64,000 nucleotides of DNA, taken from the NCBI RefSeq assembly GCF_037392515.1, contig NC_090287.1, forward strand, positions 11,413,501 to 11,477,500, in the 5' to 3' direction. A model generated the notes under the pieces. It had not been told where the DNA came from, did no database searches, and saw nothing but the letters and a program-made list of their open reading frames with translations. This DNA comes from Haliotis asinina (taxonomy: Eukaryota; Mollusca; Gastropoda; Lepetellida; Haliotidae). The translations under genes were made by a program, and so were the position numbers. Shown here piece by piece: positions 1,438 to 46,163 of the stretch (positions within the stretch are counted from its first letter, which is position 1; each line of letters begins with the position of its first letter).

Positions 1438-1588
<151 letters not shown>

Positions 1589-22627: not shown

Positions 22628-23546
22628 ATGTCTTCTGTAACCTTGTTCAGCTGCGCATGCGCAATGATACTCTTTGCATCAGTAGTCACCCCATCGCCCA
22701 CGCTACCGGAAGTAGGACTGAAAGACATGGGGTCGGAACACGCATGTCTGTTTATGTGTGAAATGTGCTTCACCGGATTTGTAAGTTGCTTTCAGCAGTT
22801 TATGCTATAGATCACGAACAATCTTGAAAAAAAATCCAAAATATAAATACATTGTGTGCTTTTACTTATCAACAACGTTGATGGATTGACACACTTTCAA
22901 ATTCAAAACAATTTAAGATGTAATAGAACACACTGTTCCTAGTTCAGTGCATAATTTCGAATTGCAGAATTGGAAACTTTATTCCATTTTAGTTTCATGC
23001 CCATTACCGATTCCTTGCATTTAGTTTCCAAGAATGGGTCCGAGAAGCATTTTCCGTGACAGTAGAACCAGTGCTGAGCGTAAGGTTACACCGTCTTAGT
23101 CATCACCAGTGCGAACCCACGCGAGCGTATAGCAGTTATACTACGGTGGCACTAAATAGGACCACGTTTCGTCCGTCTGTCACACACAAAATATGTTTTT
23201 AGGACTTAATGTCCAGACATGGTTAGACATGACGAAGACCTTTGATATGAAACGTCATATACTAGTGACGCGTGTACTGTAATAGAAGCAAGTCTCTGAT
23301 AGACGGGAGTATGGCCATTGTGATGGTCTTTTCTTTAGATTCATAGAAAACTCGATTGTCAGTATAGCTGGAACACAGAAGTGAAGGCATCATATTAACT
23401 TATTTTTCATTCTATTTCAGCCTAAACCAATGATGTACTGCGCTAACGAGGTATGCGCTGCTGGTACCTGCAACGCCCCTGGAATGGTATGGGTGGGACG
23501 CGCCTGCAAAAACCCAGCACTCCTTGACAAATTCCTGGCCAAGTAG
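22628..23546 (+). CDS. Secreted cysteine-rich peptide A (2 coding exons)
   Basis: Coding exons 22628-22780 and 23421-23546 give 92 aa. A splice acceptor at 22605 just upstream of the ATG implies a further 5' untranslated exon that I could not place. Residues 1 to about 20 (MSSVTLFSCACAMILFASVV) are a hydrophobic signal peptide, so the product should be secreted. The mature part has seven cysteines spaced C-X3-C-X2-C-X10-C-X4-C-X4-C-X11-C. CLFMCEMC ends the first exon and YCANEVC, TCN and GRAC lie in the second; the chain ends in PALLDKFLAK. The intron is phase 0 (donor GTAAGT, acceptor TTTCAG). Gene B shares every spacing and gene C shares the layout, which is the main evidence that it is real. 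An odd cysteine number would allow a disulfide-linked dimer (inference). I do not recognise the family and assign no function. Confidence 0.82.
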
Positions 23547-24025
23547 AATTCAAGTTCACCAAAATGACATCTGGTTTTGTTATCACATTCACATTCAGAC
23601 AGTGCACTAGACACTAGATGTAGCCATATCAAAGTAGCACGCGTGTTACTCATATTGGAAATTCAAGTTATGCTAAAAAAGAAACCATCCTCGATGGTGC
23701 AGGTAACAATATCTATTTTCCGGTTAATACCTTTGATCCACTCACAATGAATGGAAACGCTTGTCTGGAGACTTCCTACAATGGAGCATGAAAAACATCA
23801 TGGGTTAAATATTCTACAATATAAATGTTACTCTCAGAGTGTTAACATTCAGCGACAGAGACAATGGAGTTGGATGGACGTGAATTCAAGTAATCAACGT
23901 AAACAAACGTTCTCAGTATCATCAGATCAATAACTTACATTGATAGGAGTTATTAGCAGGTGCACTTCGGTAAAGCTCTTATGGAAAAAATACATACTAG
24001 ATAATAATGACAGAAACATAATTTG

Positions 24026-24031
24026 AATAAA
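24026..24031 (+). terminator. Possible poly(A) signal of peptide gene A
   Basis: AATAAA about 480 bp after the stop; another lies about 40 bp further on. Confidence 0.45.
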
Positions 24032-24189
24032 AATGTCAAGGACTAGAATTATGTACATTTGGTCACACAATAAATTTGTTAAATATGAATATTGTAATAT
24101 GTTATTTTTCCTATGTCACATCCGATATGCTGCCATTTGACAGTGTGAATTGTCGGATATGGACGTTTGAGTGCCATATTCTTAACAAA

Positions 24190-25520
24190 ATATCTACGAA
24201 GATACTGTAAGCTACGAAGATGACGTTACAATCTACGTAAGACCATACTTTCAGCAACATTGATTACACTTTACCTTAGATCACAGTTACGTCGTCTTAG
24301 CCCGCACCCTCATCAATATACGCAGGTGATGCTTAGATCATCAAAGACCATACTTCATCTCCGTAAGTGATACTTACATTATCCTAGATCATACTTTCAT
24401 CTCCGTAAGTGATACTTACATTATTCTAGATCATACATTCATCTCCGTAGGTGATACTTACATTATCCTAGATCATACTTTCATCTCCGTAGGTGATACT
24501 TACATTATCCTAGATCATACTTTCATCTCCGTAGGTGATACTTACATTATCCTAGATCATACTTTCATCTCCGTAAGTGATACTTACATTATCCTAGATC
24601 ATACTTTCATCTCCGTAGGTGATACTTACATTATCCTAGATCATACTTTCATCTCCGTAGGTGATACTTACATTATCCTAGATCATACTTTCATCTCCGT
24701 AAGTGATACTTACATTATCCTAGATCATACTTTCATCTCCGTAGGTGATACTTACATTATCCTAGATCATACTTTCATCTCCGTAGGTGATACTTACATT
24801 ATCCTAGATCATACTTTCATCTCCGTAGGTGATACTTAGCTAATCCTACATCATACTTTCATCAAACCAGGCGATATTTACATGGAGTCGGACCATATTT
24901 TTCTCTACGTTGATTCTATTTGCATCAATTTATACCATATATCCATCTACCTAAGTGATACTAATTACACTTAGACCATACATTCAGTTACGTAAGTGGT
25001 ACTTACATCACTTTATACCATACATTCGGCTACGTAATTAATACTTACATCACCTTAAACCATAAATAGCTACGTAAGTGAGACTCACATCGCCACATGC
25101 CATTCATTCAGATATGTAAGAGATACTTACATCACTGTAGACCATACCTTTAGCTACGTAAGTGATGTTTGCATCATCGTAGGCCATACATTCAGATACG
25201 TAAGTGATACTTACATCACTTTAGACCATATATTTACATTACCATAGGCAAAACACTCAGATTTGTGATACTTTTATTAATTATTATTATTTATTAGATG
25301 ATGCTTACAACACCTTAGACCATTCATTCAGCCACGTAAGTGATACATCACCTTAGACCATACATTCAGCCACGTAAGTGATACATCACCTTAGACCATA
25401 CATTCAGCCACGTAAGTGATACATCACCTTAAACCATACATACAGCAACGTAAGTGATACAACACCTTAGACCATACATTGAGCAACGTAAGTGATACTT
25501 ACATTACCTTAGACTACACA
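24190..25520. repeat. 42-bp satellite downstream of peptide gene A
   Basis: The homogeneous core (24330-24845) has about 12 copies of a 42-bp unit holding CATCTCCGTAGGTGATACTT. Degenerate copies with GCTACGTAAGTGATACTTAC continue on both sides to 25520. No coding potential. Confidence 0.95.
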
Positions 25521-26121
25521 TACATTTGCGATCCAACCATCCCCAAAGGTTAACCTCACTGATGCTAATACAGAATGACAGAACTGCCATTACAGCTTGT
25601 TATAGAGTTGGAAAAGAATAAATATAGGTTAAAACAATTACACGCATAGCTGTCTGCAATGTTTAATAACCTAATTCTTATTATAGGTCACATATATAGT
25701 TCAACTCTTTATACGGAGGTAGTATGGTGAGACTTATCACCAGCATCAGATCACCATGGCTAGAATTACGTCACGATGGTATTTGGGGAGTCAAATTTTC
25801 AAAAGCTTTGTCACGTGCGTGTTCAAATGCTAAGTTATCGGAACTGTTAAAAGCTTTTAGAAGTTTTTACCATCTAACAAAAAAGATGGTTGTGGAGGTG
25901 GGATGGGCATATAGCTGTCTGTCAGGTCCCATTTTGTTTATTTAGCAAGATGAACGCACACCATCCCCATGACTTCGTGCTGTCCATCAGAATTAGCCTG
26001 ACTGGTTGATGTGCTGAGAATCTTCCCGCGATGTAACACCCATTGTTGTAGTGCATGATAACACAGACTATCAAAGCTTAAGCAACACGAGACTATGTTC
26101 TCGGAGTCCACTGAGGTGAAG

Positions 26122-26170
26122 GGGCTGTGGGGTAGAGTAGTGGTTAAAGCTTTCGCTTGTCACGTGGGTG
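26122..26170 (+). mobile_element. SINE-1 5' fragment
   Basis: GGGGTAGAGTAGTGGTTAAA and CTTTCGCTTGTCACG match the SINE-1 head; the rest is missing. Confidence 0.7.
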
Positions 26171-26303
26171 AGCTGTAAGTGGGGTTACAGCAGGTAGTCC
26201 ATTAAAAGCTAAAAGTAATTCTAAGAAAACATCGAAATACCCTACTCTAGATTACCGTGCCGACTAGCAGGTAGTCAGTATTGTCTCTTAACCATACATT
26301 ACA

Positions 26304-27329
26304 TATACTACCGACAAGAAATAAGGGAACTAATGAAATAATAGCGAATTTGAAATTGCTTTAAATATCCACTAAATCAATTTTAGGCGTCAAGTTCAAT
26401 ATCTGGTGTGTCCACCATGTTGGGCAACACATTCACGGCACCTTGATGGCATGCAGTTAATCAATTTCCGGATGGTTGCCCGTGGTATTGCCCGCCATTC
26501 CTCTTGGAGAGCTGCACCAAGCTGGGCCAGGTTGGCGGGTCCTGGGTCCCTGGCGTACACCCTTCGACCAAGAACGTCCCAGAGATGTTCAATTGGGGAC
26601 AGGTCTGGGGACTTAGAGGGCCAGTCCAATGTCTGAATACCTTCTTGTCGGAGATAAGCGGAGACAATTCGGGCCCGATGTGGTCTGGCATTATCATCTT
26701 GGAATACAAAATTTCGGCCGATAACTCTAGCCAATGGAGCCACAAAAGGACGCAATATTTAGTCAACGTATCGCTGACCAGTCATGGCTCCGTTAATGAT
26801 GACCAAATCTGATCGTCTGTCATGTGTAATCCCACCCCACACCATGACACTACCACCTCCATATCGATCCAATTGCTGCTCTGGCATATCGCTCCCCGCT
26901 CCGACACCAACAATCTGTGAATAGTAGGCAAAACCTTGACTCATCAGAGAACATGGTGTAACGCCAGTGGCGCATAGCCCGTCCTTGATGCTGCCTACCC
27001 CATGCCAGTGTTTGGCGCTTATGGTGAGCTGAAAGGGTGACACCATTGAAAGACCGTCTTGGTTTCAGACGAGCTTGATAGGGTTGGTTTTTAACGGTTG
27101 AGGTTGAAATGTGTCAGTCTCTATTGCATTAGTGATTGCGACTTCTCCAGTACATTTACAGGAGTTAACTTCTGTATGCACGTGTAGCACGTACTGGGCA
27201 TGCATTATGCGAAATTCCATTGTCATTGGATGTTGCGTTTGGGAGATACGCCACGATAACGGACCCTGTCACAGTCAAAGTCATCTACATTCAATTTCTT
27301 GGTTCCCTTATTTTCTGTCGGTAGTATAT
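26304..27329 (-). mobile_element. Tc1/mariner-type transposon, shortened and inactive
   Basis: Inverted ends match: TACTACCGACAAGAAATAAG on the left and TACTACCGACAGAAAATAAG on the reverse strand at the right, next to TA dinucleotides. Minus-strand transposase pieces include MFSDESRF (about 26935), GGGSVMVWGGITHD (about 26850), FVFQDDNARPH (about 26690) and DWPSKSPDLSPIEHLWD (about 26610). From the second Asp to the Glu there are 34 intervening residues, the DD34E spacing of Tc1. The pieces lie in more than one frame and a stop precedes ILRPF. The helix-turn-helix region is missing and the element is only about 1.03 kb, so it cannot be autonomous. Confidence 0.9.
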
Positions 27330-27857
27330 ACATTACCGATAGTACTTATATTAGTGAATCCAGTTCACATGTTTCCTAGAAATGTATAAACACCAAGAGT
27401 AGTTGACAACTTCTTTAATACTTGAACACGACGTTTCGATACAGGTTCTTGTATCGTTTTCAAAGTATAAGAAAAAGATATGCCTCTCAAGCAAGTCAGC
27501 TGTAATTATAATACAACAGATAAAAAATGAAACTACAATAAGTGTAAATATACTGAGTCAAACAAGAAACTTCAGAAAATGCAATTTTTAAAAATAATGA
27601 ATAATAATTCTCTGTTGATACATCTATGTAACCGAAATGAGATCCCTATCTTTCGACTCTAGAAGAACGTTAGCAAAACCCACTCAAACCCATCCATTGG
27701 TCGTGTAAATGACGTTAGTGCCAAATCGGGTTTTACACGTGCAGTCGATCACGTGATCTTTGCATCGAAGTTGCCTCCATTTGCACGTGCTTTTTGCACT
27801 GGCCTCAAGAATTGAAAAAAAGCACACTCTTAAACCACAGTTCTAAGGGTACGTTAA

Positions 27858-28833
27858 ATGCCACGATTGTCAAATGTGCAACGTGAACGTGCCGTTGGCA
27901 TGTTGCAAGCGGGAAGATCAGTTATTGACGTCGCAAGAGCAATGGGATGCAGCCGTCGTACTGTGTAAAGACTTGCGAGGTCGCCTACATCAAACTGGCA
28001 CCACTTCTGATCGCCAAAGGTTGGATCGTCCACGTGTGACGTCACGAGCAGAAGACCGTCAAATCGTCCTGCGTCACCTACGTGACAGATTTGTGCCGGC
28101 TACACGAACCAGGGCTGATATGTTTAGAGGTCGACTGTCCTTACAGATCATTCAAAATCGGTTGCGAGCTGCCAATCACCATTCTCGTGGTCCATATAGT
28201 GGGCCAATATCGACGCCGTTTCATCAACGTCAACGTCTGCTATGGGCCCAACATCACCTCCGATGGTCCCAGAAAGACTGGAATGGAGACGTCTTTAGCG
28301 ATGAATCCAGGTTTACCCTCAGATTCGTGGACGGCAGCCACAGAGTCTGGAGACGACGTCATGAACGGTATGCCCAATGTTATGTGGTGTGGGGTGCTTT
28401 CTGTGGGAACAACCGTTCCCGACTTCTGGTCATCCGTGGAAACCTCACAGCTGCTGCTAACCGCGACCAGGTGCTCACCCTTGCACTCGTTCCTTCCATG
28501 GCGGCTCATGGCCTAGGTCTACAGTTCCAGCATGATAATGGTCGGCCGCATACCGCGATACGGACACGAAATTTCCTTTAAAACGCTGAAATCAACGTCA
28601 TGGACTGGCCATCGAGGTCCCCTGACCTTAATCCAATAGAGCACGTTTGGGATGCACCTGGTAGAAGGCTTCGTGGTCTTAGGAACCAAACTCAGTATTT
28701 GCAGGAACCTGGCGCTGCCTTGCAAGAGCAATGGCGCAGAATCCCCAACCACGTGTTCACAAGCATCAGGCAGTCGATGACGGTGTTTGGCAGTGGTGAA
28801 TGTGCGGGGCGGTCATACAAAATATTGAACTGA
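27858..28833 (+). mobile_element. Tc1-like transposase, nearly full length, inactive
   Basis: The sequence begins MPRLSNVQRERAVGMLQAG with the helix-turn-helix VIDVARAMGCSRRTV, then after a stop and a frame change near 27965 continues as RLHQTGTTSDRQRLDRPRV. VFSDESRFTLRFVDG gives the first Asp, FQHDNGRPHTAIRTRNF the second, and DWPSRSPDLNPIEHVWD the Glu, with DD34E spacing. A second stop (about 28579-28581) lies between the second Asp and the Glu. The frame ends at 28833. I see about one frame change and two stops; terminal repeats were not found by eye. It lies about 0.5 kb from the Tc1 copy at 26.3 kb in opposite orientation and belongs to a different subfamily. Confidence 0.9.
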
Positions 28834-29284
28834 GAAATTTCGAATTTTTATTCTTGTCATTTGACATTCTGCATACCCATGTTTTGGAACGGCGGTGTAG
28901 CCTAATGGAACTGATTGTGGCACTGTCAGTGTATCGAGTACATCACACAGACCGCAGCAGTGAAATGATAACATTTTAACCATCTTACCATTTCTTGTTC
29001 TTTTATAGTGCCCTGAAATAGAATTTATATAAAGTTTCTTTTTTGATGTATTAGAATAGACAAAAGAAAATAAGCTTATATAAAATTTATATCTGTGAGT
29101 TTAGGATGCTATATAAGGGTGATAGTGATTCTTCATTATCAAAATGGCGAACGCACGGGTGAAAGTTACGTTTATCGAGTCCAGCATCTATTCTATGATT
29201 GTATTAGTTTGGCTGCATGAGAAGTCCAAAACAACAATCTTAGTATCAAGAGGGCATTTCGTGATTTAAAATACAGGACTGATG

Positions 29285-29405
29285 GCCTTGTGCTTGACGT
29301 GTTGCTTCGTGAAGTCAAACTCTGAGGTTCGATTCCCATGTTGGTACAACATGCGAGTCTGAGTCTTGTGATAAGGAAGGATTACTGCTACCATCGGGTG
29401 ACTCA
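29285..29405 (+). mobile_element. Degenerate SINE-1 remnant
   Basis: GAGGTTCGATTCCCATGTTG matches the B-box region; the surroundings are heavily diverged. Confidence 0.5.
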
Positions 29406-30959
29406 CCCATACACCTACAGTACTGCTACAAATAATCTGCAATGATAGATAAACTCATAAGCAGTATTAAAGTACAGGTGTCCTATAACTTCCCTTGTAT
29501 TTTCTTTCCAAGTTTTAGTTTTTATGGTCCAACGTTCTGATTCAAACCGCAGCTGTATCCAAAGTTACTTTGGTGCTGCAGTACAAGTATACTAGCGTGA
29601 CACGTACATGTCACGTGACTTGTCTCTAACAGTTCCTCATCTTGGATAAAGCAAACAGGTTGGTACGTTTTGGTACAGGTTCGTACAGTTTTACAATACA
29701 GACGTAAGTTATGAAATTATGAGTCGGACCCGGCTGCTATCAAATTCCATTTTATTTTGCTAACTTTCAATAATACTTTCAGCAATGCAAACAATTGGAC
29801 AAAAGAAAGTATATGAAAACATGACCGGATTTGAGTGTCTGAATTCGGAACGGAGGGACGTCGGTTCAAGGGGAGTTTCATGTATATATGATGTAGTTTA
29901 CAATTCGGTTTACAGGGAATGTCGGATTAGAAGGAGTCAAAGGTATCATGTTTTAATGGTAGATGAAATTGAAGCAAACAACATGTGGTTGTTTGCAGTG
30001 TTTGATATCATACCTAGTTTTGGAATATGGTCAACTACGTTTCAACGACATTTCACATCTTGAAAATTGATTGCAAAATATATTGTTTTGGTCAAATCCA
30101 ATGTTTTTGTATACGTGTAATTTCTTTTGTCCGCCAGTGTGGTATATTTCACATTTATTCTACTAAGTTTGAAAGTTCTAATACATCGCTTGTCATTCAC
30201 ATGTAGGTAAGCTGAAGTGAGCTTTACGTCGTGGTTAAGACCGGTTATATAGAACTGTCGGACGAGGGACATAATGCTTTATCTCTGATGCCGTCAGGGA
30301 TAGAACTTCTGACCTCTCTCTAGACACACTCCAGCCACTTGACCACATATTCGGTCATTACACACATTAACAAAGCGATAGAACTTGGTTCAGTAAACTA
30401 CATGCATGTATGAGTCATGTCAGAATGGTTGTCCTCTCTCTTCAAACTGTAATCATGGCTGTGATTGATCGCTTTCACTAGCAAGGAAATTGTTACACAT
30501 TTTCGTTTCGTATGTAAATCTTTAAAATATTCTTCTGCAATAAATCAACGTCTTGTTAAGAATAGGCAGCGGATGGGTTACAAATTATGACAATTGCTGT
30601 CCAGGCAAATTGGAACACAGCTTGTCTCTAAATTAACTAATTTATGAAACAAGTACACTGAATAATGAGCATGAGTGAAGATTGTTTTATGTCGAGTAAA
30701 GAAGCAGTAGCACAGTAGTATCCCAGTAAGATAAAATTAGTTTCACACAATGTAATCTTGTTGAAATTGGCTCTAGGCCTTCGGGGTAAGAGAGACAGTT
30801 TGATCCACTTGGCGTCACAAGGGTGTAGAGCAGGATGATTATGGATTTAAAAATACATGCATATATATATATATACCTAAGCCTTCAACAATATCAGTCA
30901 TGAAGATGTTCAAATAGTTAATTTAGTCTTATGGGATATTTTGCGGATAACGGCTGTAG

Positions 30960-31063
30960 ACACCTGAAATGAGGTCCACTAATTGCACCCATGCGCTGAA
31001 TCGAAACCGGGTCTTCAGGGTACCGAGCGAACGTTTTAAGCACTAGGCTACTGCCCGTGATAT
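30960..31063 (-). mobile_element. SINE-1 copy, partial
   Basis: GAATCGAAACCGGGTCTTCA and GCGAACGTTTTAAGCACTAG are reverse complements of the head. Confidence 0.8.
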
Positions 31064-32239
31064 CCACATGCGGTCCTCTGAATCAAAGTAACAGCAGTAG
31101 CCTGCTTTAACATTTTATTGATTTTTTCATATCCATTAAATTTACGTTGAACAAAGTGATAGATTTCGTGTTGAATGTGGTTTTGCAATATGACAACCTC
31201 GGTTAACCTTCCATAACTACATGTACTACAAACGCTAACCGTCTTCTACTTTGACGCAGCGAAGCAATAATTCAGTTAAACACACCAGTAATAATCAATG
31301 AGAATGTCAGGATATAAATATAGCTGAAGCTTCCTGTCCTCAGCTTTAAATAACTCGCGCGGAAATTTTGGTGTCCCAAACTGGATTAACCACATCGAGT
31401 AATGCAATGATTTCCTCAGAAGAAATATTAATCGATTTTGTTCAAATAACAAAATACCGATTTAAAGTAAGAACCTTCTGTACAAATATAATGCTCTTCA
31501 ACATTTGGGAGAATGAATTTCATTTAATCGATGAATAAAGATAAATGAAGGGTATTTTTGATGCAGTTTTAATCATTTGGAGCGACATTGTGTATCGGGC
31601 GAACCAAATCATGCTTTAAAAATATTGATAAACTTTGTTGAAGCGTATGGAATCAATATTGTGTAATAACACAACACATGACCATCCTTGTAAACCTTCA
31701 AGACCTCTAAATACCCCTCTGTTGACATTTGCTAATTTCCTTAAACTGGTTTTAAGGACGCTCTGGGTAGACGCCATTAACTTAGATCGCTTGTAAAAAG
31801 GTAACCTCCCTCTTGAATCTCCCCCACCCCAGTCCAAACCTACCTCGAAAGTTGCCGGCGGCAAACAGACGCACGGGGACCCACCTTCATTACTTCTACC
31901 GGTATGAATCTCATTTATTCTGTGAAAGCTATTAGAAAGGTCTTTTGTTTCTTTTTTATTTCAAATTACGAGTGAGTAGTGTTGTCCGCTCTATTGCAGT
32001 TACGGCGTTTTAGGTCACAGTAATCGGTAATATTTGCTGTGAATCTCACCCTCTATCTCCACCGGATGGGGTCGGAAAAACGTTAATAGAGAAAATGAGA
32101 ACAGAACGTTTAAATTCAAGTACCAAAACATTTGCCAAATCATGAATTTACCCCGCACTCGACGCGTGATATAATATACACGTCTTCCATTTCAATGTCA
32201 AATATGTTCTCATCACGATATGGCTCAAACACTTAATAT

Positions 32240-32480
32240 TAACTAGTTTTACGCCGCACTCAGCAACATTCAGCAATATGGCAATGGTCTGTAAATAATC
32301 GAGTCTGGACCAGACAATCCAGTGATCAACAGCAGGAGCATCGATATGCGCCATTGGGAACTGATGACGTGTCAACCAAGTCAGTGGGTCTGACCACCCG
32401 ATCCCGTTAGTAGCCTCTTACGACAAGCATAGTCGCCCTTTAAGGCAAGCATGGGTTGGTGAAGGCCCATTCTACTCCGG
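32240..32480 (-). mobile_element. SINE-2 copy
   Basis: Carries ACGCCGCACTCAGCAACATT, AATAATCGAGTCTGGACCAG and CACCCGATCCCGTTAGTAGC. It ends about 200 bp before the LINE target duplication. Confidence 0.85.
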
Positions 32481-32680
32481 ACCTTCACGGGTCTCACCGC
32501 GTGAGGGTGGACGAGTGCTAGCTCGCGTGCCTGTAACCTCTGGGTCATATTCGTGCGTTGATTGATGCTCAAGGTGTCAATCACCGGATTGTGTGGCCCA
32601 GACGTGCGTGTGGTCGTCATGTAGCTGGAATATCACTGAGAGAGGATATAAACGAAAAGACACGAAATCGTGCTCTCACA

Positions 32681-34137
32681 ATGTAAGTGTGAATGTTGTG
32701 AATAATGGAATATTTGTTACTCCCCAAATCAAAGATTTACTTTTGCTTCTCTTTGCAGATGATATTGTCACGTTTTCATTTATGGTAAACGGACTGCAGA
32801 GACAGATAAATATTCTTCAAACATTTTGTGACACATGGGGACTAGAGTTGAATATGGAAAAATCTAATATAGTTGTCTTTAGAAATGGGGGCATAGTGGC
32901 ACGTTCTGGGGCAAAAGTATGAATGTTGTTTCATATTATAAATATTTGGGTCTTTTATTTTCTAGCCGATTAAATTGGTCCATGGCATCTAAAACTCTTG
33001 CAGCACAAGGGGCAAAAGTATGAATGTTGTTTCATGTTATAAATATTTGGGTCTTTTATTTTCTAGCCGATTAAATTGGTCCATGGCATCTAAAACTCTT
33101 GCAGCACAAGCTAAGAAGGCATTATTTCCCATTTTCAAACTCTTTAAGGCTAATAAATTTATTTCATTTGACTCAGCTTGCTTACTTTTTGACACTAAAA
33201 TAGCACCAATATTGTTATATGGATCTGAAATTTGGGGAGTAAACTACTTCGAAGCCATTGAAAATGTGCATGCATCATATTTTAAAAGATTTCTTACTGT
33301 AGGTAAATTTGCTTCCAACAAAGCCGTACTTGGCGATACAGGACGCTATAACATGCATATTGAGAGTCAAATGAGAGTTATCAGATACTGGATTAAACTT
33401 ATCAGAATGCCCGATTACCGCTACCCGTATCAAAGCTATCAATTATTATTATCCATAGACAAACGTGGAAAGTATTCTTGGGCTTCGGGTGTGCGAAATG
33501 TGTTATTTTCAAGCGGGTTTTCTTATGTTTGGTTTAAGCAAGATGGTGGTGATATAAAAATGTTTCTGTCAGCATTTAAACAACGAATAAAAGATATATA
33601 CATTCAGAATTGGCACGCATCAGTAAATTCATCGAGTTTTCTAAGTCATTATTCACAATGTAAATCGATGTTTGGACCTGAAAAATATATTAGGGTCCTT
33701 AATGATAAGTCCCTTTTAAGAAATTTTTGTAAATTTAGAATCTCTCTACATGCCTTAAAAATACAGCATTATAGAAAAGATAAAAATACACTAGAAGATT
33801 TATCATGTTCTTATTGTTCTTCTGGTAAAACTAAAGACGAACGTCACCTATTATTAGATTGTGAGGCATTCTCTGCCGGCCGAAGGAAGTATTTAAAATG
33901 CTTTAATGATTCCCCACAAACGATATATAAAATACTTAAATCTAAAAACGATGACACTATTAAATCAGCTGCCAGTTTTATTAAACATTTGATGTCCATC
34001 CTTAAATTACATGTAAAACCATAATTTCGTGTCACGTGACCAATATTTGTTAAAAAGAAAAATTAACTGTACTATGGGCCACTGGGCCTTCACTACTGAA
34101 TAAAAACCTGTCTGTCTGTCTGTCTGTCTGTGAATGT
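32681..34137 (+). mobile_element. 5'-truncated LINE (non-LTR) with target duplication
   Basis: TGCTCTCACA flanks both sides (32671-32680 and 34138-34147), a 10-bp target duplication. The insert starts in the middle of the reverse transcriptase, with LLLLLFADDIVTF (catalytic FADD at about 32752), then NMEKSNIVVFRNGG. A second open stretch (33020-34024) holds YKYLGLLFSSRLNW, LLYGSEIWG and a C-X2-C-X9-H-X4-C zinc-like motif (CSYC...H...C, about 33807-33862). The tail is (TGTC)n before the target duplication. A 101-bp direct duplication (units from 32908 and 33009, about one mismatch) and a further loss between NGG and the YKYLG block break the frame. Probably CR1/Jockey-like; the clade is not settled. 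Confidence 0.9.
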
Positions 34138-34263
34138 TGCTCTCACAGAGTCGATATGGAGGAAGAGCGGAGAGCTTATAAGACCTGGAAAATCCGGACA
34201 AACTTCCCATCTTCTAATATCTTCGTACAACTAGGTTTGTTGTATTTGTATGGAATTTCGTCA

Positions 34264-35040: not shown

Positions 35041-35070
35041 GACTGAGTGATGCGCGGACAAAGGTGGTCA

Positions 35071-35222
35071 GGTAGCCCAATTGCTAAAGCGTCCGCTTGT
35101 CACGCCAAAGACCCGGGTTCGATGCCCAACATGGTTTCAATGTGTGGAGACTAATTCCGGTGTCCCCCGTCATGATGTTGTTGGTATATTGTTAAATGCG
35201 GCGTAAAACTACTCTCACTCAC
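35071..35222 (+). mobile_element. SINE-1 copy
   Basis: GTAGCCCAATTGCTAAAGCG, GACCCGGGTTCGATGCCCA and GCGGCGTAAAACTACTCTCA in the expected order. Confidence 0.88.
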
Positions 35223-35224
35223 TT

Positions 35225-35980: not shown

Positions 35981-35984
35981 GTGA

Positions 35985-36160
35985 ACATCCGGGCTAGAAC
36001 TGGGCTTCAGCAACCTATGTTTCCCGTAAGAGGCGACTAACGGGATCGGTAGGTCAGGCTTGCTTACTTGGTTGACACATGTCATCATATACCATTTGCG
36101 TAGGTAGATGCTCATGATGTTGGTCACTGGATTGTGTGGTCCACATTCGATTCTGACATG
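35985..36160 (+). mobile_element. SINE-2 copy, partial
   Basis: AGAGGCGACTAACGGGATCG, CTTACTTGGTTGACACATGT and CACTGGATTGTGTGGTCCAC. The tail is lost where the 34-bp satellite region begins. Confidence 0.75.
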
Positions 36161-36239
36161 ATGGGTAGTCTGACATGAGAGTTTGACACTCGAACTTATG
36201 ATGAGCTGAACAATACATAGGAGACAATCTGACATACTA

Positions 36240-37220
36240 AACCGTCATGACACGTAAAGGCATCTGGCGTGCAAAACACCCGCTTTACAGTGCAAGAATG
36301 TGTAACGTGCTAGGCAGTCTCACATGCAAGAATCTATGACACGACAGGCAGTCTGGCGTGCAGAAAACGTATGACATGCTAGACTGTCTGACATCCAAGA
36401 ACGTATGACATGCTAGACTGTCTGACATCCAAGAACGTATGACATGCTAGACTGTCTGACATCCAAGAACGTATCACATGCTAGACTGTCTGACATCCAA
36501 GAACGTATCACATGCTAGACTGTCTGACATCCAAGAACGTATGACGTGCTAGACTGTCTGACATCCAAGAACGTATCACATGCTAGACTGTCTGACATCC
36601 AAGAACGTATCACTTGCTAGACTGTCTGACATCCAAGAACGTATCACATGCTAGACTGTCTGACATCCAAGAACGTATCACATGCTAGACTGTCTGACAT
36701 CCAAGAACGTATCACATGCTAGACTGTCTGACATCCAAGAACGTATCACATGCTAGACTGTCTGACATCCAAGAACGTATCACATGCTAGACTGTCTGAC
36801 ATCCAAGAACGTATCACATGCTAGACTGTCTGACATCCAAGAACGTGTCACATGCTAGACTGTCTGACATCCAAGAACGTATCACATGCTAGACTGTCTG
36901 ACATCCAAGAACGTATCACATGCTAGACTGTCTGACATCCAAGAACGTATGACACACTAAATAGTTTGCCATGCAAGAACGTATGACACACTAAATAGTT
37001 TGCCATGCAAGAACGCATGACATGCTAGACAGTTTGACATGTAAGTGTGTATGATGTGCTAGAGAGTCTGACATGGAAGAACGTGTGACATGCTAGACAG
37101 TATGACATGCAAGGACGTATGATATTGTAGACAGTCTGACATGTAAGAACGTATGACATTGTAGACAGTCTGACATGTAAGAACGTATGACATTGTAGAC
37201 AGTCTGACATGTAAGAACAT
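36240..37220. repeat. 34-bp satellite upstream of peptide gene B
   Basis: The core (about 36370-36955) has about 17 nearly identical copies containing GCTAGACTGTCTGACATCCA; variants lead in and out. Copies abut one another without spacers. Confidence 0.96.
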
Positions 37221-37637
37221 ATGAACAGCATTAACGCAGTTAGTGGCAGGAGGGACTACACATTGGTTAGCACAGTAGTCAGTAACACCTAATATGTGTC
37301 GGCGACCTCTATATACTTGAGGTACTGATACAAACTAGTGACTGAAATCACAAAACTAGACATTTCATCTCGATACAATGTCACCTTATCATCACAAAGC
37401 CACGTATAATTTGTCTCCTTTCGTTTTGTTAGCATGTATTTAAATCATACTTATATTCAAACACAACTGGAACGATTCTTCACATGAAACCTCATTTAAT
37501 GTATTAAGCACTTCATAACACCCTCTTTTATGTCAGTGTAAGTGTTAACGAATCTCTTTAATATAGATTAGCTCATCCTTACAAACACATATGAAGGAAT
37601 ACACTCAAATGGTTTCAAATGTATCACAATATGTTTC

Positions 37638-37782
37638 AGGGGTCGGTGGGGTTCAAACATTCGCGCGTCAAAGCGAAGACCCGAGTTCGATTACCGACAA
37701 GGAAACAATATGTGAAGCTTATTTCTGGCGTTCCCCCACCATGATATTTCTAAAAGTGGGGTAAAACTAAACTCACTCATGC
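37638..37782 (+). mobile_element. SINE-1 copy, upstream of gene B
   Basis: GGGGTCGGTGGGGTTCAAAC, GACCCGAGTTCGATTACC and GGGGTAAAACTAAACTCACT. The A box is partly deleted. It ends about 110 bp before the exon that carries the gene B start. Confidence 0.85.
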
Positions 37783-37896
37783 ACTATGTTTTAATCAAAG
37801 CAAGAGATAACAATGGTAAAAGAAGACAACTTTCAATTGTATTGCGCTACATGTGTCTGTTAACTGTACACGTCTCTTTTTTAATTTCAGTGAATC

Positions 37897-39403
37897 ATGT
37901 CAACAGTTACAATACTCATTCTGGCATGCGCTGTGCTTGAGTGCTTTCCGGTAGTGACGTCAAATGAGCCTGAAGCCGGCCCAGTGCTTCCTGTCATTGG
38001 TCTGAGAGATCCGCTTATGAGACCGGGCGATGATTGTCTCTTCATCTGTGAGATGTGTTTCTGGGACAACGTGAGTGATGTTGAAGCCATAGTCTTCTGC
38101 GTCTACCTGTTCTTACGATTGTAAAATTGACTGACCATTCCATGATAAGGCGAACCGTAATCACACAAGTATATCGGTATGGCTACAACCGCCCCTGAAG
38201 ATCCTGGTTACAATTGGTCTTCAATAAGAGGCGTTTACCGATACTGGGTGGTCAGGTTAATGTATCCCAATTGTGTTGTACGATGCCCGTGAAGTTGATC
38301 ACTGGATTGTTTGATCCAGACTCGATTGCTTACAGACCGCTGCTATATATCTGAATTTTTTCAGTATGTGGCGTTTAACACCCAACCAACAAAGAAACAA
38401 AGGTTCATTCGTGGATTGAAGTCACTAATACAACCGTAATGCCAATGTCTCGGTTTCTCTGTGTCAAGGCAACTTAACAGCCCTTGCGCCCTCTTTCGGT
38501 ACCTCTGATTTTATCATCATACCGGGATTTGTATACTATCTATCTGTATATAGTGACAACAGTTTAAGCCGTGTGGGCTTCAGAGAACCTTCGTTCTTAT
38601 GCATCTACCGTGGAACTGGATTAGATGATGATCGGTTACGTCACACTCACCCATGTACTACGTGTTGCCAATAGCCAAATCTGAATCAGTTTGTCCAGTG
38701 ACTGAAATATATCTATCGATCGTACTCAGCAGCCGCTCCTACGGTCGCTTCTTACAAGCCTTGGTTGCTGAAGATCCGAGGGGTGGTGGGGGTAGTCTAG
38801 CTGCTACATCGTTCACTCATTACACCTAAGATCCGGGTTCGATTCTCCAAACGTGTGCATAAAGCCCATTTCTGGTGTCCAAAGTCGTGATATTGCTAAA
38901 AGCGGCGCGCGAGTCGTAGCTCATGGATTGTCGGAGTCGTAGCTCATGAATTGTATGAGTCGTAGCTCATGAGGTCTGACCTCTGTGTTATACCTAGAAC
39001 TTCTTATTGCATAAAACAACATCTCAACCGTTCATACATTGAATCTACCCGATCAAGCATAAGATATCTTAAACTTATTGCTTGCAATTCTACTACAGTT
39101 AGCTGTGTGGAAAAGACAGATATACAGACCTGATTCAGTTCAATAACGTGTGTTCAGCAATATCAACACTAATATATGTCATTTTCAAATATATATTTTC
39201 AGCCACAAATGTTGATGTACTGCGCCAACACCGCCTGCAGCCGCACCCACTGCAACATCGTCGATCTGGTGTACATAGGGAGAGCGTGCAACAACACAGA
39301 GTGGCTGGACAGGTACCTCACTCCGACGATGAATACAGACACGTATTCGGAGCAGGAAACGTATTCACCGGATACGTATTCACAAGAAACGTCCAACCAG
39401 TAG
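37897..39403 (+). CDS. Secreted cysteine-rich peptide B (2 coding exons)
   Basis: Coding exons 37897-38070 and 39203-39403 give 124 aa. The ATG lies six bases inside an exon that opens with a TTTCAG acceptor at 37890, so a 5' untranslated exon is expected upstream. The signal peptide is about residues 1-22 (MSTVTILILACAVLECFPVV). The seven-cysteine spacing is identical to gene A (X3, X2, X10, X4, X4, X11), with CLFICEMC in exon 1 and MYCANTAC, HCN and GRAC in exon 2. The intron is phase 0 (donor GTGAGT). Unlike A it has a C-terminal extension of about 27 residues rich in Thr, Tyr, Ser and Glu, with TYS repeated three times. It lies about 0.7 kb after a 34-bp satellite. Family and function are unknown. 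Confidence 0.82.
38190..38390 (+). mobile_element. SINE-2 copy in the gene B intron
   Basis: GAAGTTGATCACTGGATTGT and CCAGACTCGATTGCTTACAG with a diverged tail (GTGGCGTTTAACACCCAACC). Confidence 0.7.
38786..38912 (+). mobile_element. SINE-1 copy in the gene B intron
   Basis: GATCCGGGTTCGATTCTCC and ATATTGCTAAAAGCGGCG; the tail is replaced by the 23-bp repeat. Confidence 0.82.
38911..38973. repeat. 23-bp triplicate repeat
   Basis: GAGTCGTAGCTCATG occurs three times with a 23-bp period at the end of a SINE-1 copy, inside the gene B intron. Confidence 0.9.
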
Positions 39404-39431
39404 ACCTGCACTCTTGCTCATCCAGCTTCGA

Positions 39432-39437
39432 AATAAA
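39432..39437 (+). terminator. Possible poly(A) signal of peptide gene B
   Basis: AATAAA only about 30 bp after the stop codon. Confidence 0.5.
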
Positions 39438-39439
39438 CA

Positions 39440-41960
39440 AACGTCGATAAGGCGACCAGTTGTTATCTTGTTTGTTGGAGTGGGGCAGCCTAGTAACTTC
39501 GCCACTTTGTTGATTTTATTAAATATACTGGCGCTTAGTCTACACCGAAATGATACATCTACCTGTTATATTTTCTTACAATTTAGTTTGATTTAAAAGC
39601 AGGAAGATTTTGGGGCATGATACACAACTGTTAGTCTGCCTTACAGTCCCTGAACCATATCTTTCCTGCAGTCTTATCCCCGCCCAACACCCGCAATGAT
39701 AGCCCTAAAGGCAGCAAGGCTAGGTCTATATGGGGCTCCTTTTCAATCTAGACAGGTTTATATGTTACAATCAAAATATGTATTCAGAGACTAAGCTTTA
39801 GTCTACACATAATAATTTTCGAATTTCTTGCCCCCAGTTGCCACCGAACCAGTTTAATGTTACCATTTAAATGGATGCCAAACATGTAACGCCAAACACT
39901 GGATTGTCTTGTCTACATTGGATTATTTTCAACTGGACTATAACTGAACAAATCTATGCAGGTGAGCTACAGTGATTGCGCCACTAGTTTTTACTCATTC
40001 GACGGAAAGGTTATACTGAATATTATACTGAAATAGCTAAAATACGCCCACATTTTGCACAAAAGTTGAAACAGACTCCGTGACAACGTACACTGGTTTA
40101 TTACAACCCTCTTCAGTAGTAAGCTGTAGCAAGGTCTTGACATAAGTAACGTGTATACCAAATTTTGACAAAATAAACTGTCTTCAAAATCATCATTTAT
40201 GTTTTTTTCAACTATATGGCGTTGACGGTTTGAAGTGAGTTCTTTTAATACATTACCACAATTGCTGCCGGGAGTTAGTAATGGACAAAGCTGAACGAAC
40301 CCAAGAAAACTTGGACGTACATGTAACCCTTACCCACAGACCGCTGTGAAGTCTCCTGCGCCCTGATGTAACTGTGTCGGATGTCATTAAAGGTGGAGAT
40401 CGTCTACGATCAGCGTGGGTGGCTTTCTCACTAACATTGCAGATATCTCTTCCATGCTAGATAAAGAGTGGGGTAGTTGGGGTGATTTGGGGTTTACGTC
40501 ACATCGTCATTGTTCCAGCCATATAGTTGAGAGATCAGTCCTACAGAGGGAGGACTGAGGGAGGGAGGGAGGGAGGGAGGGAAGAGACTTACTCAGGCAT
40601 AGAGAGATTCCTGTAACAGTTGCACGCACATAAATACGTACAGACGCCCAGAGACCGAGATCAATGTCTTCACAAATGCTGTATCGACAACTGCTCTGTC
40701 GAATCCATCAAAAGAAGATATACACACAATGATATGCGTCATTTCTTTGAAAGTGTGTCAGTGCCGACTTGCTGGCCTGAACTTATCTGGGTCAAACTCT
40801 TCAGTAGGTGATGTGCCATGCCTTGTCTGTATCTGCATGAAAGTACCTTAACAGACTTATAACACCTGTTACACCTGGTCAAAAGGAGGATGATTACAAA
40901 ATCTATACGTTCAACAGAAACACCCCCATCAAGCATCCCACTTGTCCTACATTGTAGCAATACATAGATATGAATATCGATCAGAATGATCAACATAATG
41001 GTTTGGGTGAAGAAAAAAAAGATAATGTAAATTAAGTCAATTCATACAAACTATGCTGATATTCCAAGAACGAGACGCACCCTTATCAGCTGTTGCCGTA
41101 TCATGATATAAACTTTCAGAGCAGAGCAAGAAGTCTTCACTGGTTATCAAGCCGCTATTCGAGTCTCGATCAGGTGCAGTCTGCCAACACCAAAACCTCT
41201 GTCATACAGAAGAAAGCCTATCCGGTCACTCGAGAGGGAGACATTGTTCAGGTTTGTGTTTTTGACACCTTATAAAGGTAGAAAATAACATTTTGCTATC
41301 TTTGCTGTACACCTAATGATGACTAGATTTCGATACACTGTCGCTGGTAAGAACCGTGCCACGAAAGTGCCGTCCACGTTTGTTTGGCGGAGTTGGGTCT
41401 GTCTGTTTTATCCAATCTGCTACGCTACCATTATGACAAACCAATGGAAATGATCAGTACGTCCTTTTCGCTCTAATCAGCAAATGTCTGGAAAATACTA
41501 ATACGTATGCAACGTATGAATATAAGTGAAATTGATGACAGTATAAGGTTATGCATTTACATGCATCATATAACAAAGCACATACAAGTGTTTACGGGTT
41601 CATTATGTTTTTTGCTGTTGTCGGTTTTGCAAAGGCGATAAACGTGTACGTGTGATAACTGTACAACAATTCTTATAGCCGCCACTAACTCTTCCAGCTC
41701 AATTATTGTTAACATTCCTTGTTTCAACAAAATCAGTAATTACTCTTTTCAGACAGTGGATTGTCTGGTGTCGGATCTTTACGGTACACCGGAACCCTTT
41801 TTGCGAACACTGATTCTCAGTGGTGCGTTCATGGAATGTTCATCACTACAAAACTTTCGTCTTTACATTCAATGAAAACCGTTTCGTCGGAGTTAAAGAT
41901 TGACCGTGACATGTTCTGACCATTCTTTGGCCTTGACATTCTGTATTCTCATTTAATCAA
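39440..41960. other. Spacer between genes B and C
   Basis: No repeat family beyond the (GGGA)n tract and no domain. It probably holds the 5' untranslated exon of gene C; a stretch ending GGAGACATTGTTCAG then GTTTGT (about 41251) is one weak candidate. Confidence 0.4.
40557..40581. repeat. (GGGA)n repeat
   Basis: About six GGGA units between genes B and C. Confidence 0.9.
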
Positions 41961-41990
41961 CTATTCCAGAGTGGGAGTGCACGCTGAAGT

Positions 41991-44900
41991 ATGAAGTCCC
42001 TCCTCCTCGCGTGTGTGCTGACTGCGTACCTGTACACACCTGTGACAGGTGAGATGCGACTGCTTCCTGATAAGAACCTGTCGGAATCGGATATAAGTGC
42101 ATCACACAAATGCATGTACATCTGTCAGATGTGCGCTGTAGTAAGTAAACACCTCGCTAGTACGGACTTTCATATTCCGTACACGTTATCCTAGTAGCTA
42201 CAGTTTACAGCAATGTTTTCTCTTTCCTTAATTACGTGTGGGGGTAGCCTAGTGGTTAAAGGGTTCGCTCGTCACGCCGGAGACGGGTTCTATACCCCAC
42301 ATAGGTATAATGTGTGATGCCCATTGATGGAAGGAATGGACGCACTATAACTCACTCACTCTCTTGTCTTAGTTGATCATTGGATTGTCTGGTCCAGACT
42401 CGATTATTTATAGACCGCCGCCACATAACTGGAATACTGCTGAGCACGGCGTAAAACTCAACTCAGTCAATCTTAGCAAAATTGCTTGGTAATTACATCC
42501 GGTGCCTCAATATCCCATGTGTCCTGGCTAAATGATAAGTTCGTTTCACTCCATTTAGTGGATTTACGTCACAGTGGATGCATCTATAGAAGTTGCCCCT
42601 TGACCTGTCAAGAAATAAACAACCCATTTTCTTCACTTTTATTTTTCATGGAATATTTATGGCCCCTAAATGATCTTAATATGGGAGGGACATATACACT
42701 GCATGTTTGTGTTTTCATATGTGTCAGAAAGCTGACTAGATTCAAGTGAATGAGTACACACATAGATATGTTAGCATGTGTCTGTATGAACATCTTTGAT
42801 GTCGGTGACTCAGACTGCGATGGTCCGTTGATTAAGTGGACAGTTAGACAAGGTTACCTGTTGGCACGGCGACACCAATAATGGACTTGACGCATTGTAC
42901 CTGTAAGGGAATCGAACCCGGGTCTTAAGCGTGACGAGCAAACGCTTTAACCACCAGACTACCTAAAAACATTTTGGAGCGAAATTGCAAAATTGTTTAT
43001 GCGGTGTAATGAAGTACTCACCTGTATTTGCGCCTACCTGTATATGTGTAATCTCATAAACGCCAGTGCCTGGCAGGCTAAACCTTCGATCACACACTAG
43101 ATTCATTGCTTGTCACAATGTGTGATTATATGACGAAATGAAATTGTCAGTATTCACCGGAGGTGCAAAATACCACTGCTTCAAGGTCACGCGTTTTATT
43201 AGAGAAGCAATGATATCATAGTGGATTACACGACCTCACGATGTACGTTTTGATGCATTTAGGGATCGAACCTCAGATCCTCTGCTCTTTGGGGCTGACA
43301 CACTATCCATTGGGTTACGACGTTCTTGTCCTCGATCTGTGCAGGGACGACACTCGGGAAGACCAAAGGTGTTTGTTTGTTCGCAGATTCATCGTAATTC
43401 GCCATGATTATATGTTCTTGTGGCTTTCGGTCTTCTATCACTACGGGTTTCCGTGCCATGGTCGGGTCCTAGACAGTGCGTGGGGTGAAGACAATTCTAA
43501 CCCCTCCCCCTACACACACACACACACACACACACACACCTTCAACATTCCTGGATCCGCCCATACGTCCTGCATTAAATGCCCGTGAAACAGTTACAAT
43601 TCTGTGATCTAACGTTGTGATACTTAATGTTTACGTCGGCACAAGGATGACGTTATTTGACGTTCTAGGATACTTAACGTGAATAGTTTATTAGTTTTAT
43701 TTCTGCACGTGCAACTCCATTTCCCTACCATCTGAATCTTGAAAATCAAGTTTCAAACACTTGGTTTCAGCGGTCACTTTAGAGTGAGTATATCAGAGAA
43801 AAAAGGTAACTACCGCTGAGAGATGGCATGTGATAGGCATGAAAAATGCTGGCATGACATGCAGAGTCGTTGCAAGGCTAATGGCTCCTCATCACCCGTT
43901 TAGTTGCTAAACATAATCAAACCAGTGATGTCAATGACAGTCATAGATCTCGTTACCATTGAGTATCCAAAGTAGCAGATCACAAAAATGGTGGGTGGCG
44001 CTTAACTTTTGTGCATATGTATATATTAAGGCGGCGTTTTACCCAGTTCACTTTCTCACAATACACCACACACGCCGTCGGGTATTTTAAGGCAGCCTAA
44101 ATAACAAAGGTCACCAGAAGATGGCATATCCCCCCGGCCCCCACATATTTGAGAGGACAAATCATCTGAATGTTACTTGATGTTTTCTTAGATTAAGTTT
44201 GAATCGTCTCCATGGAAGTCATGAAAAATATAAATGCCATATATCTGTAAACAGCAAAAGGCACCACTTAAAGATCTGCCTCACATATCTGCCAAGATGT
44301 GTTGAAAGATATCAAATGGTGCTCGAGTTGTCCTCTGGAAACGAAGTCCATCCCTCCATGTTGAGACTAAGTCAGAATTGTTTCAATGGAAACCAGGAAA
44401 AATAGAAATGCCAAAAGATTGTAAATGGAAAAAGGCACAACTCCGTGGTCTGCCTCAAATATCTGCCATGTTTTGCTGTAAGATCTTGAATAGTTTTCGA
44501 GTTCTGCTCCGGAAACGAAGTCCATCGCTCCATTTTGAGACTAAGTTAAAACCGTTTCCATGGAAACTGTGAAAATGATAAATCACAAATTTATGTAAAT
44601 AGCAAAAGGCACAGCTTTAGGGTCTCCCCTACATATCTGCCACGTTTTGCTGAAAGATATTCAGAAGTTTTTGAGTTGTGCTCCGGAAACGAAGCCCATC
44701 CCACCATTTTGCGACTAAGTCCGAATCGTTTCCATGGAAACCCAGAAAATTATAAACAACAAAAATCTGTAAATAGCAAAAGTCACCACGTTGGGGTCTG
44801 CCACATATACCTACCAAGGTTTGCTGACGAATATTAGGAACTTTTTGAGATGTGCTCCGGAAACGAAACACACCTCTCACTTTTGAGACAAAGTCTGAAT

Positions 44901-46163
44901 CGTTTCCATGGAAACAGAGGAAATCATAAATTACAAAAAAAACTGTAAATAGCAAAAGGCACCAATCTTCTGATTGGTATATCTACCAAGTTTTGCAGGA
45001 AAACAAAGAACGGATTTTGAGGTGTGTTCCGGAAACGAAGTCCATCGCTCCATTTTGAGACGAAGTCCGAAACGTTTCCATGGAAACCAAGAAAATAATA
45101 AATCACAAAATCTGTAAATAGCAAAAGGCACCACTTTAGGTTCTCCCCTACATATCTGCCAAATTGTGCTGACAGATATTTAGAAGTGTTTGAGTTCTGC
45201 TCCGGAAACAAAGTCCATCCCTCCATTTTGAGACTAAGTCCGATACATTTCCAGGGAAACCGAGAAAATAATATATATATATATAAAACTGTAAATAGCA
45301 AAGGACACCACTTTAGGTTCTGACTCATGTATGTAACAAGTCTTGCAGAAAAATAGTCCGAAACGTTTCCATGGAAACCGAGAAAATGATAAATCACAAA
45401 AACCAGTAAATGGCACCACTTTGGGGTCTGCCACACATTTTTGCAGAAACATACTGAACGGTTTTTTAGTTCTGCTCTGGAAACGAAGCCCACCCCACCA
45501 TTAGACTAACACCATAATGTTCCATGGAAAAACCAACAAAAAAATAAAATAAATAAAAATGCCCAAACACTGTAAATAGCCAAAGGCACAACTATAGGTT
45601 GAGATAGTTTCTGAGTTATGCTCCGGAAACAAAATGATTTCGGAAGGACGGACGGTGGGCGGGCGGGCGGACGGACGGACGGACGAGGCGTCGACTATAT
45701 CCCCCCGCATTACATGCCGGGAGGATAATAAAACATATATAAGTCACATTGGGATGAGGATCCCAGTAGGGTTTATGGTGCCCAAGTCGTCGTTGTTTAT
45801 GGGTCCAATAATAAAGAGCACTTCTCTCCCCTGCCCATTCCATCCCGTACATACTATTTGTGTAGGTCTAACGGTCTTCATCGGTGCCCAGATGGGCCGA
45901 TCCATGCTCATATTGTCGATCACTGGATGTCCCGGTCCAGATTCGATTATTTACAGACTGCCGCCCTATAGGGCCAATATTGTTGCGTATGACGTAAAAC
46001 TAAACTCACCAGCTCACTCCAGTGTACATACCTCTGTGATTGGTTGTTCCAGGACCTGGAGGCGTGCTTCAACTCCTATTGCGGGAGCGTGGTTGACCCA
46101 GCTGGAATTGCCAGGATCGTCTGCGAGTGCCAAGACCTCGAAACTTTAAAGAAGTACGTCTAA
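41991..46163 (+). CDS. Secreted cysteine-rich peptide C, diverged paralog (2 coding exons)
   Basis: Coding exons 41991-42140 and 46053-46163 give 86 aa. The ATG follows a splice acceptor (TTCCAG, ending 41969) by 21 bases, as in A and B. The signal peptide is about residues 1-20 (MKSLLLACVLTAYLYTPVTG). Exon 1 ends with CMYICQMCAV, matching CLFMCEMC and CLFICEMC of the paralogs, then a phase-0 intron. Exon 2 holds ACFNSYC and VCEC, so seven cysteines remain but the later spacing is changed to X6, X4, X13, X1. The C-terminal CQDLETLKKYV resembles CKNPALLDKFL of gene A. The intron is about 3.9 kb and holds two SINE-1 copies, two SINE-2 pieces, a (CA)n run and a 174-bp satellite. The exon 1 to exon 2 link rests on frame, splice sites and likeness to A and B; it is less secure than theirs. 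Confidence 0.7.
42236..42362 (+). mobile_element. SINE-1 copy in the gene C intron
   Basis: GGGGTAGCCTAGTGGTTAAA with GTTCGCTCGTCACGCCGGAG; the second half is shortened. Confidence 0.85.
42365..42465 (+). mobile_element. SINE-2 3' part in the gene C intron
   Basis: GTTGATCATTGGATTGTCTG, CCAGACTCGATTATTTATAG and GCACGGCGTAAAACTCAACT. Confidence 0.8.
42862..42968 (-). mobile_element. SINE-1 copy in the gene C intron, partial
   Basis: GGAATCGAACCCGGGTCTTA and CAAACGCTTTAACCACCAGA are reverse-complement head sequences. Confidence 0.85.
43258..43325 (-). mobile_element. tRNA-like SINE head or tRNA pseudogene
   Basis: On the reverse strand TAACCCAATGGATAGTGTGT and GAGGTTCGATCCC mimic A and B boxes about 30 bp apart, with an Arg-tRNA flavour. 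The fold is not complete enough for a functional tRNA. Confidence 0.4.
43512..43540. repeat. (CA)n microsatellite
   Basis: About 14 CA units in the gene C intron. Confidence 0.97.
44195..45640. repeat. About 174-bp satellite in the gene C intron
   Basis: The mark CGTTTCCATGGAAACC recurs at about 44209, 44382, 44560, 44729, 44903, 45075, 45250, 45366 and 45523, spaced 169-178 bp except the last two. Other conserved parts are CTGTAAATAGCAAAAGGCAC and TCCGGAAACGAAGTCCATC. Long minus-strand open frames here (for example 44924-45493) are repeat-derived. Confidence 0.92.
45644..45686. repeat. (GGAC)n/(GGGC)n tract
   Basis: A G-rich tetranucleotide run directly after the 174-bp satellite, followed by a CCCCCCGCATTACATGCCGG segment. 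Confidence 0.9.
45880..46012 (+). mobile_element. SINE-2 3' part before gene C exon 2
   Basis: TGTCGATCACTGGATGTCCC, CCAGATTCGATTATTTACAG and GACGTAAAACTAAACTCACC. It ends about 40 bp before the exon. Confidence 0.8.

Follow-up and report, generated by a model that had tools for sequence, protein, structure and literature searches.

The 64,000-nucleotide stretch of the Haliotis asinina genome analysed here (the window; C8:11413501-11477500 of a 1.14-Gb assembly in 159 contigs) carries three genes in tandem, designated A, B and C, that are predicted to encode small, secreted, cysteine-rich peptides. They form an old, real tandem family that is probably an unrecognised branch of the eclosion hormone (EH) type, EH being the hormone that controls moulting in insects. 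We favour, with modest confidence, the reading that A, B and C are strongly diverged EH paralogues; their kinship with EH is likely rather than statistically proven.

Our reading of the sequence places all three genes on the plus strand, each with two coding exons separated by a GT-AG phase-0 intron, and it returned the same exon and junction coordinates as an earlier note on this DNA. The features are as follows.

22586..22605, plus strand: acceptor-like site of a presumed 5' intron of gene A (CTAATATCTTTCTTTTACAG), 22 nucleotides 5' of the ATG
22628..22780, plus strand: gene A coding exon 1, with leader, short linker and CLFMCEMC, followed by the donor GTAAGT
22781..23420, plus strand: gene A intron, phase 0, GTAAGT...TTTCAG
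23421..23546, plus strand: gene A coding exon 2, which encodes four cysteines and includes the stop; AATAAA/ATTAAA words lie at 24026 and 24069
37871..37890, plus strand: acceptor-like site of a presumed 5' intron of gene B (CGTCTCTTTTTTAATTTCAG), 6 nucleotides 5' of the ATG
37897..38070, plus strand: gene B coding exon 1, with leader, linker and CLFICEMC, followed by the donor GTGAGT
38071..39202, plus strand: gene B intron, phase 0, containing an interspersed repeat and ending in the acceptor TTTCAG
39203..39403, plus strand: gene B coding exon 2, which encodes four cysteines and an acidic tail bearing DTYS-like repeats
39432 and later: AATAAA/ATTAAA words following gene B coding exon 2
41950..41969, plus strand: acceptor-like site of a presumed 5' intron of gene C (CATTTAATCAACTATTCCAG), 21 nucleotides 5' of the ATG, with a weak score
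41991..42140, plus strand: gene C coding exon 1, with leader, linker and CMYICQMC, followed by the donor GTAAGT
42141..46052, plus strand: gene C intron, phase 0, containing a 174-bp tandem array (44190-45355) and ending in the acceptor TTCCAG
46053..46163, plus strand: gene C coding exon 2, which encodes four cysteines and the end CECQDLETLKKYV and includes the stop; AATAAA word at 46366

The translations (predicted lengths 92, 124 and 86 amino acids for A, B and C) each begin with a hydrophobic N-terminus that was judged by eye to be a leader, with two cysteines inside it in A, two in B and one in C. When the leader is cut by eye, seven cysteines follow in each peptide, as the earlier note had counted. 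That note also described a CxxxCxxC motif closing the first coding exon and a phase-0 intron 2-4 codons further on, and both are found in all three genes, the intron lying four codons after the third cysteine in A and B and two codons after it in C. The cysteine pattern is shared in full by A and B, whose spacings are identical (3,2,10,4,4,11), but C (3,2,6,4,13,1) has only the opening spacings, 3,2, in common with them. Acceptor-like sites were scored within 30 nucleotides 5' of 6307 ATGs in a 264-kb region consisting of the window and 100 kb on either side. The intron that the note placed just before the ATG has a convincing presumed acceptor in A and B (0.5% and 0.3% of ATGs, respectively, have an equal or better site), but not in C (20%).

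In the shuffle tests the counts given are the shuffles that reached the observed score, and searches of the window were made with composition correction off. Exons 1 and 2 of gene A found their counterparts in B at E 4e-9 and E 3e-10, respectively, and C exon 1 found A exon 1 (E 7e-7). None of 2000 shuffles that kept the cysteines in place reached the score of A with B or of B with C, and 26 of 2000 reached that of A with C; when the cores were lengthened and the gap set to -11, with either partner shuffled in turn, the counts per 2000 were 0+0 for A-B, 1+0 for B-C and 2+1 for A-C. Gene C scored 21.5 bits against a profile of A and B, a value reached in 0/1000 shuffles. Comparison of A with B over 92 codons counts 35 differences at first positions, 29 at second and 58 at third (p 0.003). 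These comparisons identify A, B and C as homologous and codon-constrained, and the tandem family of leader-bearing, cysteine-rich peptide genes described in the note is borne out by the exon matches and the shuffles. The array genes are known from sequence alone, which leaves some room for chance open frames or pseudogenes without function; with A and B homologous in both exons and changed in excess at third positions, and with splice sites intact in all three genes, we regard that reading as hardly credible.

The array is old and not a fresh expansion: its silent sites have reached or approach saturation, and its introns and flanks retain short matches only. Silent divergence between A and B exceeds the NG86 range, and silent (dS) and replacement (dN) divergence are 2.07 and 0.85 for A-C and 1.26 and 0.78 for B-C. 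In the introns and flanks, the best match of A with the other genes is 38 bases long (E 1.4e-5), and the best between B and C, 61 bases (E 7e-14), lies within a repeat that also occurs elsewhere in the window. Genome searches with A, B and C gave, among the best candidates scored, nothing beyond the three genes at E <=0.5, places L005-L008 of the search with B (E 0.52 and worse) being left uninspected, and the best additional place in a tblastn search of the 264 kb had E 0.045 and contains a stop. Both strands of the 264 kb hold 31 open-frame CxxxCxxC sites, four of which have a donor word from a list of 13 within 18 bases (<=18), and three of these four are A, B and C. Given the near-saturated silent sites, the short intron and flank matches and the lack of a fourth copy in these searches, the suggestion that the family is currently expanding by local duplication is not supported.

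To which known family might such genes belong? The available text of one report lists EH in molluscs, annelids, nemerteans, phoronids and others, and treats the role of the EH gene in non-moulting animals as an open question (PMC6660194); EH also appears in the available text of a molluscan survey (PMC6425005). In the present assembly, the Pfam EH model PF04736 (curated cut-off 25 bits) gave 12 matches, of which one, at C8:28111171, lies above the cut-off (30.7 bits; 29.5 as protein). Six of the 12 places were inspected, including the true EH, with L031, L033, L036, L037 and two further places left out. The native EH gene (C8:28111102-28111455) encodes a precursor with two EH-type domains, EH1 and EH2, divided by SRKR, and in this it resembles the oyster EH precursor, described in the available text of its report as two EH ligands parted by a dibasic site (PMC8398477). 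The cysteine frame of native EH1 is C3C2C13C3C11C. An acceptor-like site lies 2 nucleotides 5' of the ATG of the native EH gene, and 6.8% of ATGs equal it.

A genome search with native EH revealed a second gene at C8:15905761-15906027 (E 0.51), one of four places inspected among six beyond native EH itself (L048 and L050 were left out). This gene has eight cysteines, comprising the EH frame and extras, within one coding exon, and an acceptor-like site 9 nucleotides 5' of its ATG that is equalled at 0.4% of ATGs. It has no Pfam EH match, and its score against native EH1 was reached by 0/2000 shuffles in each of four runs; by its sequence it is surely a diverged EH-like gene. A genome search with the EH-like gene recovered that gene, native EH at E 0.13 and a single C7 place; the weak places on C15 and C7 had no EH-like frame on inspection. 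A low-confidence model (pLDDT 66) of the EH-like gene product places C-x3-C-x2-C on one helix and the cysteines that follow on a second.

The likeness of A, B and C to these EH-type genes begins with the cysteines. EH opens with C-x3-C-x2-C. The Manduca EH sequence has the frame C3C2C12C3C10C, and the Pfam EH model confirmed it at 120 bits. Taken together, the spacings of Manduca EH and of native EH1 and EH2 define the frame C-x3-C-x2-C-x(12-13)-C-x3-C-x(9-11)-C, whose first two spacings are those of A, B and C; the distance from the third to the fourth cysteine is 10, 10 and 6 in the three peptides, that from the fourth to the fifth is 4, and the seventh cysteine is extra. When seven cysteines were placed at random in the same span (400000 draws each), an EH-like frame arose with a frequency of 0.0008 for A/B and 0.0013 for C, for frame ranges that were chosen after the sequences were known. 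EH and the array peptides are alike in the putative leader, the C-x3-C-x2-C opening, the C-x3/4-C pair and the last cysteine. Past the last cysteine, position +9 is aromatic and position +10 aliphatic in 6/6 sequences tested (the three array peptides, the EH-like gene product and the EHs of Manduca and Drosophila), a likeness to insect EHs that shuffling yields in 2.5-4% of cases for each sequence and that was picked after the sequences were known. All five genes (A, B, C, native EH and the EH-like gene) lie on one chromosome, C8, which makes up 66.9 of 1143 Mb (5.9% of the assembly), and all five have an acceptor-like site 2-22 nucleotides 5' of the ATG, that of C being weak and that of native EH middling. 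The EH-like gene shares with A, B and C the EH frame with extra cysteines, the absence of a Pfam match, the acceptor-like site and the +9/+10 pair, and it is unlike them in its eight cysteines and its single coding exon.

Residue similarity may also point in places to EH. CLFMC in A and CLFIC in B compare with CLFEC in native EH1. The best residue match of the EH-like gene within the array is B, and for this pair 8 and 6 of 2000 shuffles matched the observed score when the gap was set to -8, against 50 and 36 of 2000 at gap -11. The score of A against the EH profile was reached in 32 of 1000 shuffles and that of native EH1 against the A+B profile in 16 of 1000.

Other observations weigh against kinship with EH. 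Neither the entire sequences nor the cores of A, B and C match any Pfam model, PF04736 included, and the PDB sequences and NCBIfam (a bacterial and archaeal library) gave no match or chance-level matches only. Profile-profile comparison with three insect EHs yielded nothing (probability 0.2%; 74 and 70 of 100 column shuffles did as well). B and C do not stand out when compared with the EH profile (399 and 194 of 1000 shuffles), and in the reverse direction the three insect EHs are at chance against the A+B profile (796-926 of 1000), where the EH-like gene is equalled in 84 of 1000. Gene A (637-981 of 2000) and gene C (283-427 of 2000) are at chance against the EH-like gene; against native EH1 the counts per 2000 are 83-167 for A, 70-243 for B and 104-177 for C; and against Manduca EH, A and B fall below the shuffle means and C is reached by 84-240 of 2000. 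These shuffle tests are low in power: EH2, from the genuine EH precursor, likewise shows no residue signal beyond its cysteines against the EH profile (607/1000). There are structural discrepancies too. In native EH1 a basic site takes the place of the +9/+10 pair, and nothing follows the last cysteine of EH2; A and B have a spacing of 4 between the fourth and fifth cysteines and a 16-residue stretch preceding the last; and all three peptides carry an extra cysteine, although the EH-like gene has extra cysteines as well. The coding intron that follows the third cysteine in the array is absent from both native EH-type genes; the insect EH gene has one intron, its place being left unstated in the available text (PMC8396664). 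Unlike EH, then, the array peptides have a seventh cysteine, other loop lengths, a coding intron 2-4 codons past the third cysteine and no Pfam match, and each precursor holds one domain where the native and oyster EH precursors hold two.

The same observations could be viewed, in line with the earlier note, as the marks of a separate family of secreted peptides with seven cysteines, restricted to one lineage and serving as a peptide signal or as a defence or mucus component, whose EH-like start arose by convergence. The absence of any curated model matching A, B or C, the weak or chance-level residue similarity to EH, the extra cysteine and the coding intron unmatched in the two native EH-type genes are what such a family would present, and we hold this account possible, though short of probable, since convergence leaves the array sharing with the EH-type genes a chromosome, an ATG-proximal acceptor-like site, a six-cysteine frame and a C-terminal aromatic-aliphatic pair. 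If the family is unrelated to EH, it is a small secreted family that no curated model covers and is of modest interest. Because none of the three scores above the Pfam cut-off for EH, A, B and C are not classed as EH members; EH descent is still the likeliest reading. The earlier note's remark that it knew of no named family with this pattern stands insofar as no curated model claims A, B or C, and is probably incomplete, as EH fits the opening and the six-cysteine core. Among the titles and abstract openings listed from the literature on EH in lophotrochozoans, molluscs and gastropods including Haliotis, on EH in connection with expansion or tandem arrangement, and on seven-cysteine gastropod peptides, none described the array; most subscription journals fall outside that scope, and an earlier description is possible.

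Two other families deserve comparison. Peptides of the ion transport peptide / crustacean hyperglycemic hormone (ITP/CHH) family (PF01147) are six-cysteine helical neurohormones that, like A, B and C, have a CxxC followed by an aromatic residue, and the CEMCF..F..P....C of gene A resembles the CEDCY..F..P.....C of ITP. Gene A scores better against an ITP sequence (14-24 of 2000 shuffles) than against native EH1, a further point against EH, and the corresponding ITP counts are 38-101 for C and 193-298 for B. However, the first cysteine of ITP stands 15 residues before the CxxC, not 3, PF01147 matches none of A, B and C, and ITP is at chance against the A+B+C and A+B profiles (366 and 248 of 1000). 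Across the genome PF01147 finds 23 places, of which the sole one flagged over the cut-off, and the only one inspected, is a tandem repeat. The ITP frame, C-x15-C-x2-C-x12-C-x3-C-x8-C, is not that of A, B or C, and on this ground membership of the ITP/CHH family was rejected as very unlikely. Tandem families of cysteine-rich peptides are common in molluscs, and small size, many cysteines, leaders and tandem arrangement would also suit antimicrobial or toxin-like peptides. The mature peptides, with net charges of 0 (A), -10 (B) and -4 (C), are not cationic, and their neutral-to-acidic character argues against a cationic antimicrobial role; together with the lack of a Pfam match this makes such an identity most improbable. 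Defensins have the pattern C-x3-C, a final C-x-C and a cationic charge; the defensin type was rejected on cysteine order and charge, a C-x-C end occurring only in gene C.

How might peptides of EH descent act? Each short precursor would lose its leader and release one mature peptide of ~66-102 residues, there being no dibasic site ahead of the first cysteine in any of the three; that of B would carry an additional acidic tail. The fold may be a small helical bundle with EH-type disulfides, in which cysteines 1, 2 and 3 would lie on one helix and 4 and 5 on the next, and the last cysteine would precede a C-terminal helix ending in the aromatic-aliphatic pair. An AlphaFold2 model of the exon-2 part of B has three helices, at low confidence (pLDDT 57); the low-confidence models fit a small helical disulfide bundle and prove nothing. 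The disulfides of EH pair C1-C5, C2-C4 and C3-C6. Since this pairing uses six cysteines in three bridges, a seventh would be left over, and this odd cysteine may link two peptides as a dimer. If the secreted signals behave as EH does, they might work through a receptor guanylyl cyclase, the route given for insect EH in the available text of PMC5627052. We infer EH descent, fold, disulfide pairing, dimer and receptor alike. As for the site of action, oyster EH transcripts are found chiefly in female gonad, mantle and digestive gland, according to the available text of PMC8398477, which we count against the EH reading; a neural role should not be taken for granted.

Should the array derive from EH, the EH-type genes of this snail would number at least five, of which the Pfam model misses four, and molluscan EH-type signalling would be richer than profile searches reveal. 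A more specific version, which we consider doubtful, is that the array is a separate vetigastropod hormone subfamily that branched off from EH within a single chromosome, acquired a seventh cysteine as well as a coding intron, and now signals as disulfide-linked dimers; were it true, a "moulting hormone" gene would have become a multi-copy signalling system in a non-moulting animal. The array supplies named genes for studies of expression, dimerisation and receptors.

Satellite-like arrays lie downstream of gene A (42-bp units, 24324-25521) and upstream of gene B (34-bp units, 36293-37224), and the array within the gene C intron (44190-45355) consists of ~6.7 copies of its 174-bp unit with 74% matches. 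Between genes A and B are transposase-like fragments at 26396-27046 (minus strand; DDE_3 over its cut-off) and 27874-28581 (plus strand; sub-threshold, Tc3-type), and a reverse transcriptase fragment at 32593-34024 (plus strand; RVT_1 just over its cut-off) that includes a 101-bp tandem duplication (32908-33110, 99% identical). A perfect CACG repeat of ~38 copies occupies window positions 1439-1589. Elsewhere in the genome, the egg-lysin model PF01303 has 10 matches, eight of which are on C14 with E <0.05 (best 2.9e-12), as suits a vetigastropod, the family being known only from snails of the abalone and turban-snail kind, and six egg-lysin-like matches are clustered at C14:26671878-26685731.

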